From Pseudomonas sp. UBA2684 (GTDB lineage: Bacteria > Pseudomonadota > Gammaproteobacteria > Pseudomonadales > Pseudomonadaceae): a stretch of 64,000 bases of DNA. The stretch covers positions 9,395 to 73,394 of the forward strand of contig DELY01000044.1 of the NCBI GenBank assembly GCA_002354655.1. The letters run 5' to 3'. Positions 4,402-31,903 of the stretch are shown here, one piece after another; positions within the stretch are counted from its first letter, which is position 1; every line of letters starts with the position of its first letter. Made by a program: the position numbers and the translations under genes. The notes beneath the pieces are model-generated. The model saw only the letters and a list, made by a program, of their open reading frames with translations. It did no database searches and had not been told where the DNA came from.

Positions 4402-4796
4402 GGGGAGGTCCTCTTCTTATCGAAGCCGGCGAATTCCGGCCCTGCTAGTTATGCACCGAGGACGTGCACGACTGAATGGTACTTTGGGAGGAAATCGGGC
4501 TGGCATTGGTAGCGCTCCGGACCGCGACCAGACGCTCGCGGGCGCACCAACAGGCGATGGCATGGCGCATTGCGCCCCAACCTACGCGGCCCGAGCCAAC
4601 GCCACGCTCGAAGCGGACGTGTCCGCGAGCGCTTGCTGTAGTGACGCGCAATAAAAAACGCGGCCGAAGCCGCGTTGCGTGAGAGATCTGCTGCCGTCAA
4701 TCGGGCGACTGCCGCCCGATGCAAATCCTGCCCGAAGGCATATCGCAGGAAGGAGCCGGCGCACGGGAGCACGCGCGCCGGGTTAATAGGGCTGAA
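4402..4796. promoter_or_regulatory. pqqA upstream region
   Basis: This 395-base gap lies between the end of exaC and pqqA. It contains the exaC terminator, a half copy of the GTAGG-type repeat (4560-4588), and two sequences related to the shared dyad of this locus. One is TTGGTAG at 4506-4512, about 97-105 bases before pqqA. The other is TGGTACTTTGGG at 4477-4488, which also occurs exactly at 22423-22434. It is the likely site of the pqq promoter; I cannot fix the -10/-35 boxes. Confidence 0.45.
4653..4676 (-). terminator. rho-independent terminator of exaC
   Basis: An AACGCGGC/GCCGCGTT stem with a CGAA loop is followed, on the minus strand, by a run of six T. It lies 120 bases after the exaC stop codon and isolates exaC from the pqq promoter. 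Confidence 0.9.
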
Positions 4797-6317
4797 TCAG
4801 AAGAAGCCCATCGGGTTGATGTCGTAGCTGATCAGCAGGTTCTTGGTCTGCTGATAGTGGTCGAGCATCATCTTGTGGTTCTCGCGGCCGACGCCGGATT
4901 TCTTGTAGCCACCGAACGCGGCGTGCGCCGGATACAGGTGGTAGCAGTTGGTCCACACGCGCCCGGCCTTGATCCCGCGGCCCATGCGGTAGGCGCGGTT
5001 GATGTCGCGGGTCCACAGGCCGGCGCCGAGGCCGAACTCGGTGTCGTTGGCGATCGCCAGGGCTTCGGCTTCGTCCTTGAAGGTGGTCACGCTGACCACC
5101 GGGCCGAAGATCTCTTCCTGGAACACGCGCATCTTGTTGTTGCCCTTGAGCAGGGTCGGCTGGATGTAATAGCCGCTGGCCAGGTTGCCATCGAGGCTTT
5201 CCGCCGCGCCGCCGGTGAGCAGCTCGGCGCCTTCCTGTTGAGCGATTTGCAGGTAGCTCAAGATCTTGTCGAACTGCTGCTCGGAGGCCTGGGCGCCGAC
5301 CATGGTCTCGGTGTCCAGCGGGTTGCCGCGTTTGATCTGGGTGATTTTCTTCATCACCTCGGCCATGAACGCCGGGTAGATCGACTCCTGCACCAGCGCC
5401 CGCGACGGGCAGGTACACACTTCGCCCTGGTTGAAGAACGCCAGCACCAGGCCTTCGGCGGCCTTTTCGATAAAGCTCGGCTCGGCCTGCATGATGTCTT
5501 CGAAGAAGATGTTCGGCGATTTGCCGCCCAGCTCGACGGTGCTCGGGATGATGTTGTCGGCGGCGCAACGCATGATGTGCGCGCCCACCGGAGTCGAGCC
5601 GGTGAAGGCCAGCTTGGCGATGCGCGTGCTGGTGGCCAGTGCCTGACCGGCCTCGCGGCCGTAGCCCTGGACGATGTTGAGTACACCCGGCGGCAGCAGG
5701 TCGCCGATCAGTTCGGCGAACAGGCTGATCGACAGCGGCGTCTGCTCGGCCGGTTTGAGTACGATGCAGTTGCCGGCGGCCAGGGCCGGGGCGAGTTTCC
5801 AGGCGGCCATCAGCAGCGGGAAGTTCCACGGGATGATCTGCCCGACCACGCCCAACGGCTCGTGGAAGTGGTAGGCGGCAGTCAGTTCGTCGATTTCCGC
5901 GGCACTGCCTTCCTGGGCGCGGATGCAGCCGGCGAAGTAGCGGAAGTGGTCGGCAGCCAGCGGCACGTCGGCATTCAGGGTTTCGCGCACGGCCTTGCCG
6001 TTGTCCCAGCTTTCGGCCACGGCCAGCAGTTCGAGGTTGGCTTCAATGCGGTCGGCGATCTTCAGCAGCACCAGCGCACGGTTCTGCGCCGAGGTCTTGC
6101 CCCAGGCGTCGGCGGCGGCATGCGCGGCGTCCAGCGCGCGTTCGATGTCGGCGCTGCCGGAGCGGGGGAATTCGCCAATCACCGAGGCGTCGACCGGGCT
6201 GGTGTTGGTGAAGTATTCACCGTTGAGCGGCGCGACGAACTCGCCGCCGATGTAGTTGCCATAGCGCGGCTTGAGGGTGACGACGGCGCCTGGCGTACCG
6301 GGTTTGGCGTAAATCAT
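4797..6317 (-). CDS. exaC: NAD-dependent (acet)aldehyde dehydrogenase
   Basis: The 506-residue enzyme oxidises the aldehyde produced by the periplasmic alcohol dehydrogenases to the acid in the cytoplasm. The ALDH motifs are present: [10 protein letters not shown] near 161-170, FTGSTPVG near 239-245, Glu262 in VELGGKSP and the catalytic Cys301 in FNQGEVCTC. The length equals that given for P. aeruginosa ExaC. I chose the ATG at 6317, preceded by GAGAGGA at good spacing, over a further upstream start. It is monocistronic, with a strong terminator and a dyad of the shared type about 111 bases upstream. Confidence 0.94.
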
Positions 6318-6427
6318 GATGCGGTCCTCTCTGGTTGTCGGAGCCTGCCCCGAAAGCGTGGAACAGGTCATGGTTGGATATTAGGAAGCCGCTGGGCCAT
6401 CGGGTATGCGCCCAAGGCATAAAACCT

Positions 6428-6442
6428 CTCGTCATTTGGTAG
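6428..6442. promoter_or_regulatory. putative response-regulator box upstream of exaC
   Basis: CTCGTCATTTGGTAG matches 11 of 15 positions of the CTACTCCCTTGGTAG dyad found upstream of pedH. It lies 111 bases upstream of the exaC start, nearly the same distance as at pedH and pedF. Confidence 0.5.
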
Positions 6443-30709: not shown

Positions 30710-31814
30710 TGAACTGCTCTCCGTAGGTGTTGAAACCTATAACTTGCTGACTGCGCAGAAAGCTCGAAACCGGCTCGACGCCGCCGTCATCCTCGATTTC
30801 CAGGCGCCGCAGAAAACAGTCGCAGCCGATGGTCAGCAACAGTGGCCCGAGGCGTTCGTGCAGGCCGTCGAATACGCCTTGCAGATTGGGCAGTAACGGC
30901 CCCGGCTGCATGGCGGTGAGGACGATGCCGTTCTCCACCGCGCAGTAGAAACTCAAGCTCAGGTCCGCGTTGACCCGCTGAATCGAGCGCACGTAATACT
31001 GCTCGCTGATCCGCACCGCCAACGGGTGCGCGGCGAACACCCGATGATCCAGCGCCGCCAGCGGCACCCCGATCAACTCGGCGTACTCCTGCGCCGCCGG
31101 CGCGGCGTTCAGCTCATACACGCGCCGGCTGGCGCTGTCGGCCCGGGTGACCACCAGCTTTTCGCCGCACGGCAGAATGTGGTGGGTGCTGAACACCTCG
31201 AAATCCAGCCAGGTGTTGAACAACACCACCACTGCCGCGCCGGTGTGGAACTGCCCGCCGTAATAGACATGCGTATGGGTCAGGTGGTTGTCGTCGCCCG
31301 CCGAGCCGCCGAAGTGCGGAATGCTGCCCAAGGCCGCGCTGAGCGCGCCGAGCACCACCTCTTCGCGGCTGGACAAACCATCGAGCAAGGTCAGGGCGAA
31401 GCTGTGGCCCTTGATCGAGGCCAGCTCGTTGTTGCGGCAATCCTTGACCAGCCGCTCGACCAGTTGCTGGGCGTCGATCAGGCTGAAGCGCTCCATTTCA
31501 TCGATCAGCGCGCTGGCGATGGAGAAGCTGCGGTGATCGAAGCCCACCGCGCTGACGCAGCCACGGCCATAGCCTTGCGGGGTGATTTCGCCGGCGCTGG
31601 TGCAACCGATCAGGTTGACCCCGCCAAAGTACTGATCGAGTGCCTCGCCGAGGCCTTGCAGGTCATATTCGGCGGAGCAGAAGAACAACACGAAGCCCAG
31701 GTGTGGATGGATCAGCTGGCGGGCCAGGTCCTGCGCCACCAGTTCGACATCGGTGGCACAAGACATGGCAGTTACGACGCCTTCAGTCAGTTCCCGCTGC
31801 ATAACGTGCCCCAT
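30639..31814 (-). CDS. nosP: FIST-domain protein, NosP-like nitric oxide sensor
   Basis: The 391-residue protein consists of FIST_N and FIST_C domains (LGFVLFFCSAEYDLQGLGEAL, LIGCTSAGEITPQGYGRG, GGSAGDDNHLTHTHVYYGGQ). NosP proteins are haem-binding NO sensors that regulate the adjacent kinase NahK, and this gene overlaps the NahK-like kinase gene. Several His lie in the central DDNHLTHTHVYY segment; I cannot say which would bind haem. An alternative start is Met5. A divergent dyad box lies 75 bases upstream. Confidence 0.8.
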   Translation of the reverse strand: MGHVMQRELTEGVVTAMSCATDVELVAQDLARQLIHPHLGFVLFFCSAEYDLQGLGEALDQYFGGVNLIGCTSAGEITPQGYGRGCVSAVGFDHRSFSIASALIDEMERFSLIDAQQLVERLVKDCRNNELASIKGHSFALTLLDGLSSREEVVLGALSAALGSIPHFGGSAGDDNHLTHTHVYYGGQFHTGAAVVVLFNTWLDFEVFSTHHILPCGEKLVVTRADSASRRVYELNAAPAAQEYAELIGVPLAALDHRVFAAHPLAVRISEQYYVRSIQRVNADLSLSFYCAVENGIVLTAMQPGPLLPNLQGVFDGLHERLGPLLLTIGCDCFLRRLEIEDDGGVEPVSSFLRSQQVIGFNTYGEQFNGMHINQTFTGVAIGRPGRSGCR

Positions 31815-31888
31815 GCAAAAGCCTACTGGTCATAGGGGATTCTACGAAGCTAACCCGCCACCCCCCATCCAACTTGAGTAGCGCCGGG

Positions 31889-31903
31889 CTAGTTCCTAAG
31901 TAG
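31889..31903. promoter_or_regulatory. putative response-regulator box upstream of the nosP-like gene
   Basis: CTAGTTCCTAAGTAG is a dyad matching 12 of 15 bases of the pedE/pedF box CTAGTCCCTTGGTAG. Its centre differs (TAAG in place of TTGG), so it may be a weaker or different site. Confidence 0.4.

Follow-up and report, generated by a model that had tools for sequence, protein, structure and literature searches.

A 64,000-nt stretch of Pseudomonas sp. UBA2684 (C29:9395-73394, contig DELY01000044.1 of assembly GCA_002354655.1; 4.83 Mb in 59 contigs), which was analysed as a whole and is called the window here, carries a locus for alcohol oxidation dependent on pyrroloquinoline quinone (PQQ). 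Its promoters had been predicted to share a 15-base dyad, 65-111 bases upstream of the first gene of each unit, that would be the operator of a LuxR-type response regulator, either PedR2 or ErbR. Here we describe this element as an 18-bp inverted repeat that appears to be used mostly as a tandem of two copies 22 bp apart, together with a second element, a CGGGAA-N3-TTCCCG palindrome, at pedE and pedH. The distribution of both elements among related genomes suggests that the dyad is read by ErbR and that the palindrome is more probably the one used by PedR2.

Genes and promoter elements of the locus

The two regulators originally named as candidates, ErbR and PedR2, each carry a receiver and a GerE domain. 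The names of PedF, the PQQ-linked substrate-binding protein of pedA1, the CXXCW protein, NahK, NosP, ExaC, PqqB, PqqE, PqqF and the porin were confirmed; the label SoxYZ-like for 21898-22344, which has no family match, is presumed from its position.

Orthologous promoters were collected by a scan for relatives of pedE, which yielded 80 named loci, taken with flanks of 10 kb as far as the contigs extended; the relatives behind the conservation counts given below are not mutually independent. Upstream of pedE a dyad was counted when at least 9 of 13 fixed positions agreed, and at the other promoters when a 9-position score reached at least 8 in the modal place, window rows being included. Three models were built from sequences of relatives with no window row: R1, a 46-bp tandem model (35 sequences); R2, from pedE promoters alone (CGGGAA-type palindromes); and R3, a 24-bp single-site model (42 sequences). 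Because 150 first-look candidates were scored in each genome scan (out of 864, 2206 and 423 for R1, R2 and R3, respectively), the scans are not exhaustive and the genome ranks reported here hold among the candidates scored. The principal genes and the sites are as follows.

8645-10420: pedH, PQQ-alcohol dehydrogenase
16532-18403: pedE, PQQ-alcohol dehydrogenase
19997..20644, minus strand: pedR2 (eraR/exaE), response regulator of LuxR type, the one proposed here for the pedE palindromes
20644..21894, minus strand: pedS2, sensor kinase (HisKA_3, HATPase_c, HAMP)
27231..27896, plus strand: erbR (agmR/pedR1), response regulator of NarL/LuxR type, the one proposed here for the tandem
4476..4515, plus strand: pqqA tandem (near site 4476-4493, far site 4498-4515); gene on the minus strand, ATG at about 4401
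6406..6445, plus strand: exaC tandem (near 6406-6423, far 6428-6445), picked out by R1 and by shuffles
10453..10467, unstranded: pedH palindrome CGGGAAATTTTCCCG, immediately past the presumed -10 of pedH; candidate site of PedR2 or another factor
10529..10546, plus strand: single pedH dyad, in the far position; 47 of 49 pedH upstream regions, third in the genome with R3
16314..16353, plus strand: tandem between pedF and pedE, in a position that suits pedF best (near 16314-16331, far 16336-16353); 80 of 80 regions
16411-16423 and 16433-16445, plus strand: tandem palindromes of pedE, 22 bp apart; 80 of 80 regions, candidate PedR2 operator
22400..22439, plus strand: tandem between the SoxYZ-like/pedS2/pedR2 unit (minus strand) and pedA1A2BC (plus strand); 31 of 31 regions
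26515..26532, plus strand: dyad before a rhodanese-like gene (p2666) and erbR; 37 of 42 regions, second in the genome with R3
31867..31906, plus strand: degenerate nosP-nahK tandem (near 31867-31884, far 31889-31906); reached by 0 of 1000 shuffles
33448..33487, plus strand: porin tandem (33448/33470), not part of the original prediction and met among control regions
36391..36430, unstranded: possible site pair before pqqF, its tandem unmatched in 1000 shuffles

Register, spacing and conservation of the dyad

Each of the six predicted 15-mers was found once, in the place assigned to it, and the half-site TTGGTAG before pqqA at 4506. The range of distances to the genes was about right, although only 56 bases separate the site at 22400 from the start of its gene (22344). 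When the genome was scanned with R3, seven matches reached E<=10, the first five being the TTGG sites at 16336, 26515, 10529, 22400 and 6428; the sixth lies within a long open frame and the seventh (L161, G000:C47:9797), possibly a chance match, before a membrane-protein-like open frame. Scored with R3 over the window without filters, the same five sites had E values of 0.0002-0.01, whereas nosP at 31889, with an E value of 2.5, and the half-site of pqqA, with 7.4, remained at chance level and are thus not significant as single sites. With R1, four places in the genome reached E<=10, all of them in this locus (16312, 22398, 6406 and 4474); the 16314-16353 tandem was the best match and the 22400 tandem the second, and within the window the pqqA tandem had an E value of 0.0053.

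The full dyad is 18 bp long, CTACTACC-TT-GGTAGTAG, and consists of two inverted 7-base TACTACC elements around a gap of 2 bp, the 7-2-7 arrangement of NarL/LuxR-type sites. With nine site classes equally weighted, the best centre of symmetry falls at index 8.5 of the 15-mer (score 1.45) and the centre implied by a 15-bp register, at 7.0, comes second (0.76). The observed score was matched at any centre by none of 2000 column permutations, and it was stable when each class in turn was left out.

In three promoters of the window TTGG repeats stand at a spacing of exactly 22 bp (4483/4505, 16321/16343 and 22407/22429). When a matrix of the main sites only was used to compare up to 68 offsets, 22 was the best in four of six promoter classes, namely pqqA, exaC, pedF and SoxYZ-like. 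In seven units a conserved element resembling a -10 box, chosen by eye, is found 31-36 bp past the centre of the near site (or the near position); on this basis the near and far sites would stand at about -43 and -65, respectively, from the start of transcription. Most units thus have two dyads in tandem, 22 bp apart, at these inferred positions.

In all but one of nine target regions (seven distinct), the tandem score was reached by no more than 1 of 1000 Markov shuffles; since the scoring matrix, also used for the pedH and pedE dyad scores below, was built in part from rows of the window and from orthologues of six of the target classes, the p-values of these classes are partly circular. The exception was pedH, where 6 of 1000 shuffles reached the tandem score, at another place, and none reached that of the single pedH site. 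For nosP, whose rows are absent from the matrix, and for pqqA, whose near and far sites are in it, no shuffle of 1000 reached the tandem score, so the 22-bp tandem rescues two sites that are weak when taken singly. Among 23 control upstream regions of the window, some of which overlap one another, the tandem was unmatched in 1000 shuffles only for the porin and pqqF, neither represented in the matrix; the next lowest p was 0.059. Both are genes of the alcohol-oxidation/PQQ pathway, and their detection among the controls amounts to an unplanned check of the regulon.

Wherever the upstream region in question could be located, the sites recur at the orthologous promoter and at a near-constant distance from the gene. 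The dyad upstream of pedE is present in 80 of 80 regions (79 relatives and the window), and those of the SoxYZ-like gene (31/31), pedF (78/81), pedH (47/49), pedA1 (31/33) and p2666 (37/42, or 38/42 counting one site further out) recur likewise; in loci without a detected p2666 homologue (e.g. L042, L044 and L049) the dyad stands directly before erbR. The near site of exaC has lost its TTGG in the window and retains it in 7 of 11 non-redundant rows. Among 12 nosP regions, window included, the best tandem lies 50-69 bp from the start in nine, L025, L043 and L077 being the misfits; the fitting regions have a near site resembling ATGCT[A/G]CTTG[A/G]GTA, of which the window copy is ATCCAACTTGAGTAG. 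The porin tandem was found at -63 to -79 in nine of nine porin regions, and none was found before three distant pqqF homologues (37-40% identity).

The plain 15-mer pattern with two mismatches was tried and set aside: it shows no genome-wide excess, with 29 matches in the genome, fewer than the 116 of a reversed control. Such a result is what one would expect if the likeness of the sites were due to chance or were a by-product of promoter structure such as a -35 element. We find this explanation scarcely credible in view of the genome specificity of R1 and R3, the symmetry under permutation, the 22-bp offset and the conservation at promoters of many species. The shared element was borne out by the positions of the sites, their genome ranking and their recurrence before the orthologous genes of as many as 79 relatives; a regulon operator with dyad symmetry, of the kind read by LuxR/NarL-type response regulators, is well supported, while the 15-bp register and the single site as the unit are not. 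The original prediction did not include the second site of the tandem, the sites of the porin and (possibly) pqqF, or the palindromes at 16411/16433 and 10453.

Extra dyad-like pairs, 14 bp apart and on the opposite strand, were seen about 220-255 bp before the SoxYZ-like gene of L024, L031, L033 and L034, where they may serve a divergent gene; L013 has a similar extra pair there with its sites on opposite strands.

Candidate regulators of the dyad

Among 244 genomes of the order, a PedR2 orthologue was found in 12 (E<=1e-45) and an ErbR-like protein in 35 (E<=1e-60). At pedH, all of 20 genomes, ten with PedR2 and ten without, have a dyad score of about 11 or higher, and for 18 of them no more than 1 of 60 shuffles equalled it (base composition being kept in 50-bp blocks only, in this as in the shuffles for genomes outside the order). 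One genome counted as lacking PedR2, G052, is only 75% complete; on a repeated search of the PedR2-less genomes at E<=1e-15, the best PedR2-like protein had 39% identity. Since genomes that lack a PedR2 orthologue keep the dyad at pedH, it is not tied to the presence of PedR2. Of 16 pedE-type genes in the order, 13 have a clear dyad upstream. PedR2 is known to regulate both pedE and pedH (PMC6115532; this and the other papers are cited from passages of their text), and a dyad stands in or next to each of the two promoters, as it would if PedR2 bound it; set beside the persistence of the dyad without PedR2 and a different palindrome that tracks PedR2 at pedE (see below), binding of the dyads by PedR2 seems very improbable, and this one of the two candidates originally named is disfavoured.

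In a class-level set, 11 genomes outside the order have a pedH homologue (59-75% identity); ErbR is present in one of these (G387, 73%) and absent from ten. None of the ten pedH promoters without an ErbR orthologue has a dyad score of 11 or more, and that of G387, which has ErbR, scores 14.0; at these pedH promoters the dyad is therefore absent where ErbR is absent, a strong contrast that is nonetheless confounded with taxonomy. It is also found at the units of pedF, exaC, pqqA and pedS2R2, which depend on ErbR/AgmR (PMC12997753).

The closest paralogue of ErbR within the genome is ErdR (45% identity), PedR2 being 28% identical. In the stretch that we take to be the recognition helix, ErdR has TVKAHVTAIFRKL and PedR2 TVSNYLTLLKHKL, and ErbR and ErdR are nearly alike (TVKAHV). 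The dyads might accordingly be assigned to ErdR (CrbR), the acetate regulator, or be common to ErdR and ErbR. ErdR reads imperfect inverted repeats (the ACTU motif) centred at about -44 from the start; its site at acs is TACTACCATCGTCGAAT, with the motif at -52 to -36, and TACTACC begins this and one more of six printed sites (PMC5715377). In P. aeruginosa, moreover, CrbRS is proposed to lie upstream of ercAS and agmR (2026 review PMC12997753). In contrast to our dyads, whose right half, GGTAGTA in full, is mostly GGTA[G/C], all six printed ErdR sites have a GTC-type right half, and they occur once per promoter and control acetate genes (PMC5715377). The ped dyads cluster in this locus, which speaks against ErdR; deletion of erdR in P. 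putida leaves ethanol use unaffected (PMC12997753); and G267 keeps a response regulator 39% identical to ErbR, possibly ErdR, and has no dyad at pedH. Ownership by ErdR, whole or shared, thus appears unlikely.

The co-occurrence with ErbR, the likeness of the ErdR helix and the TACTACC half of some ErdR sites make ErbR the likely owner of the dyad, and of the two regulators in the locus it is ErbR that the evidence favours. That the dyads and 22-bp tandems are ErbR operators across the locus, with PedR2 using a separate palindrome, is in our judgement quite probable. Each 18-bp inverted repeat would then be a 7-2-7 site for one putative ErbR dimer, and two sites 22 bp (two helical turns) apart would place two dimers on one face of the DNA, from where they could recruit RNA polymerase. 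ErbR would switch on PQQ synthesis, the cytochrome PedF, ExaC, PedH, the PedA1A2BC transporter, the porin and NosP-NahK, and also its own operon and that of PedS2-PedR2. PedR2 in turn would control pedE by way of a separate tandem, that of the CGGGAA-N3-TTCCCG palindromes, and may also act at the lone copy behind the -10 of pedH.

A number of observations weigh against this assignment to ErbR. With R1, exaC (6406) and pqqA (4474) of the window score low, at 13 bits and genome-wide E values of 0.3-0.4; degeneracy is greater in the near sites than in the far ones, and pedH and p2666/erbR have no clear second site, with weak peaks at offsets of -29 (pedH) and +21 (p2666). Conservation at a score of 8 of 9 reaches only 20/37 regions for exaC (33/37 at a score of 7) and 13/21 for the near site of pqqA. 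The pedH dyad is weak against shuffles in G019 (5/60) and G123 (8/60), and G218, G192 and G203 have a weak dyad or none upstream of their pedE-type genes. The absence of the dyad without ErbR is confounded with distance, since the ErbR-less genomes belong to other orders; one of them, G524, scores 14.4 before a pedE-type gene (3/100 shuffles), and G387 scores just 6.0 before its pedE-type gene despite having ErbR. Finally, just two of the six printed ErdR sites begin with TACTACC.

By analogy, the dyad would work as a NarL-type 7-2-7 operator used in tandem, an ordinary mechanism. At ogt of E. coli, NarL reads inverted heptamers with a 2-bp gap and acts at -44.5, -67.5 and -77.5, close to the positions proposed here, whereas the tandem spacing by stated centres is 33 bp rather than 22 and the regulator and signal are others (PMC7419079). 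The ErbR assignment agrees with genetics, in which AgmR/ErbR activates the ped cluster and the pqq operon and appears to act upstream of PedS2-PedR2; the passages of that review, unlike our data, give no operator sequence (PMC12997753). No printed operator for ErbR or PedR2 was found in listings and main-text passages of the open-licence literature searched; the text of an atlas made by high-throughput systematic evolution of ligands by exponential enrichment (HT-SELEX) names EraR (PMC8041468). Both operators thus appear to be new to the literature, the ErbR regulon and the rare-earth switch of PedS2/PedR2 being already known genetically. Two readable operators would turn the hierarchy of ErbR above PedR2 into individually mutable sites, permit prediction of the regulon in other pseudomonads and provide parts for alcohol- and lanthanide-responsive promoters.

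The CGGGAA-N3-TTCCCG palindrome and other repeats

Upstream of pedE, two palindromes resembling GGGAA-N3-TTCCC are present in 80 of 80 regions (at least 16 of 20 positions), and a spacing of 22 bp is the best in 78 of them, with two ties; in more distant families the second pedE box lies at 20-23 bp or is not clear. The genome scan with R2 gave three matches, pedE first and pedH, marginally (E 1.16), third. The sole perfect CGGGAANNNTTCCCG of the genome is the one at pedH, behind the inferred -10. Copies with one mismatch occur elsewhere in the genome, among them CGGGAAATTTTCCCA, outside the locus at G000:C12:38636-38650.

Counted at 9 or more of 10 positions, the pedE palindrome is present in 10 of 11 PedR2-containing genomes and in none of five that lack PedR2 (Fisher p 0.0014; four of the five are of one family). 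The ErbR-less G524 has a perfect palindrome at its pedE-type gene, beside a gene for a PedR2-like protein of 43% identity, and in G387 the palindrome matches at only 8 of 10 positions beside a PedR2-like gene of 40%. This co-occurrence at pedE fits the published genetics, according to which PedR2 is a LuxR-type regulator that activates pedE and represses pedH (PMC6115532), both of which carry the palindrome here. The passages of that paper give no binding motif, and the pedH copy described here occurs also without PedR2. PedR2 more probably uses the CGGGAA-N3-TTCCCG palindrome than the TTGG dyad.

The pedH copy behaves differently from that at pedE. It is kept in 8 of 10 genomes with PedR2 and in 7 of 10 without, in six of those seven at 82-83 bp from the dyad, so the loss with PedR2 expected of a simple PedR2 operator was not seen and PedR2 by itself does not account for this copy. 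The ten ErbR-less genomes have no such palindrome at pedH. At nine PedR2-less pedH loci, ErbR was the only response regulator beside pedH among proteins similar to those of the window. An RNA hairpin was considered and is disfavoured on reading the sequences, as changes in one half-site (GGGCA, GGGAC) are unmatched on the other side. Activation of pedH by lanthanides has been ascribed to a yet unknown regulatory module (PMC6115532). It is conceivable, if rather doubtful, that the pedH palindrome, which in most pedH promoters lies at a fixed 82-83 bp from the dyad, is the landing site of a separate, lanthanide-responsive regulator of pedH, and that at pedE PedR2 competes for this same sequence or has been recruited to it. 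In that case two regulators reading one palindrome would make up the rare-earth switch. The palindrome at pedH in genomes without PedR2 offers a concrete lead toward the pedH activator.

Three further features of the locus were recorded. A REP-associated tyrosine transposase (NF047646) is encoded at 19440-19901 on the minus strand, between pedD and pedR2. In the gap between nosP and the porin gene (31960-32160), two near-copies of a ACAGGGACAT..GCCATAGAAAA stretch bracket an inverted repeat of the GTGGGAGCGGCTTTAGCCGCG type, the whole presumably resembling a REP-type element. The intergenic region between pedH and mqo contains a direct repeat of CTATTTAGCCCGGC at 10700-10745.

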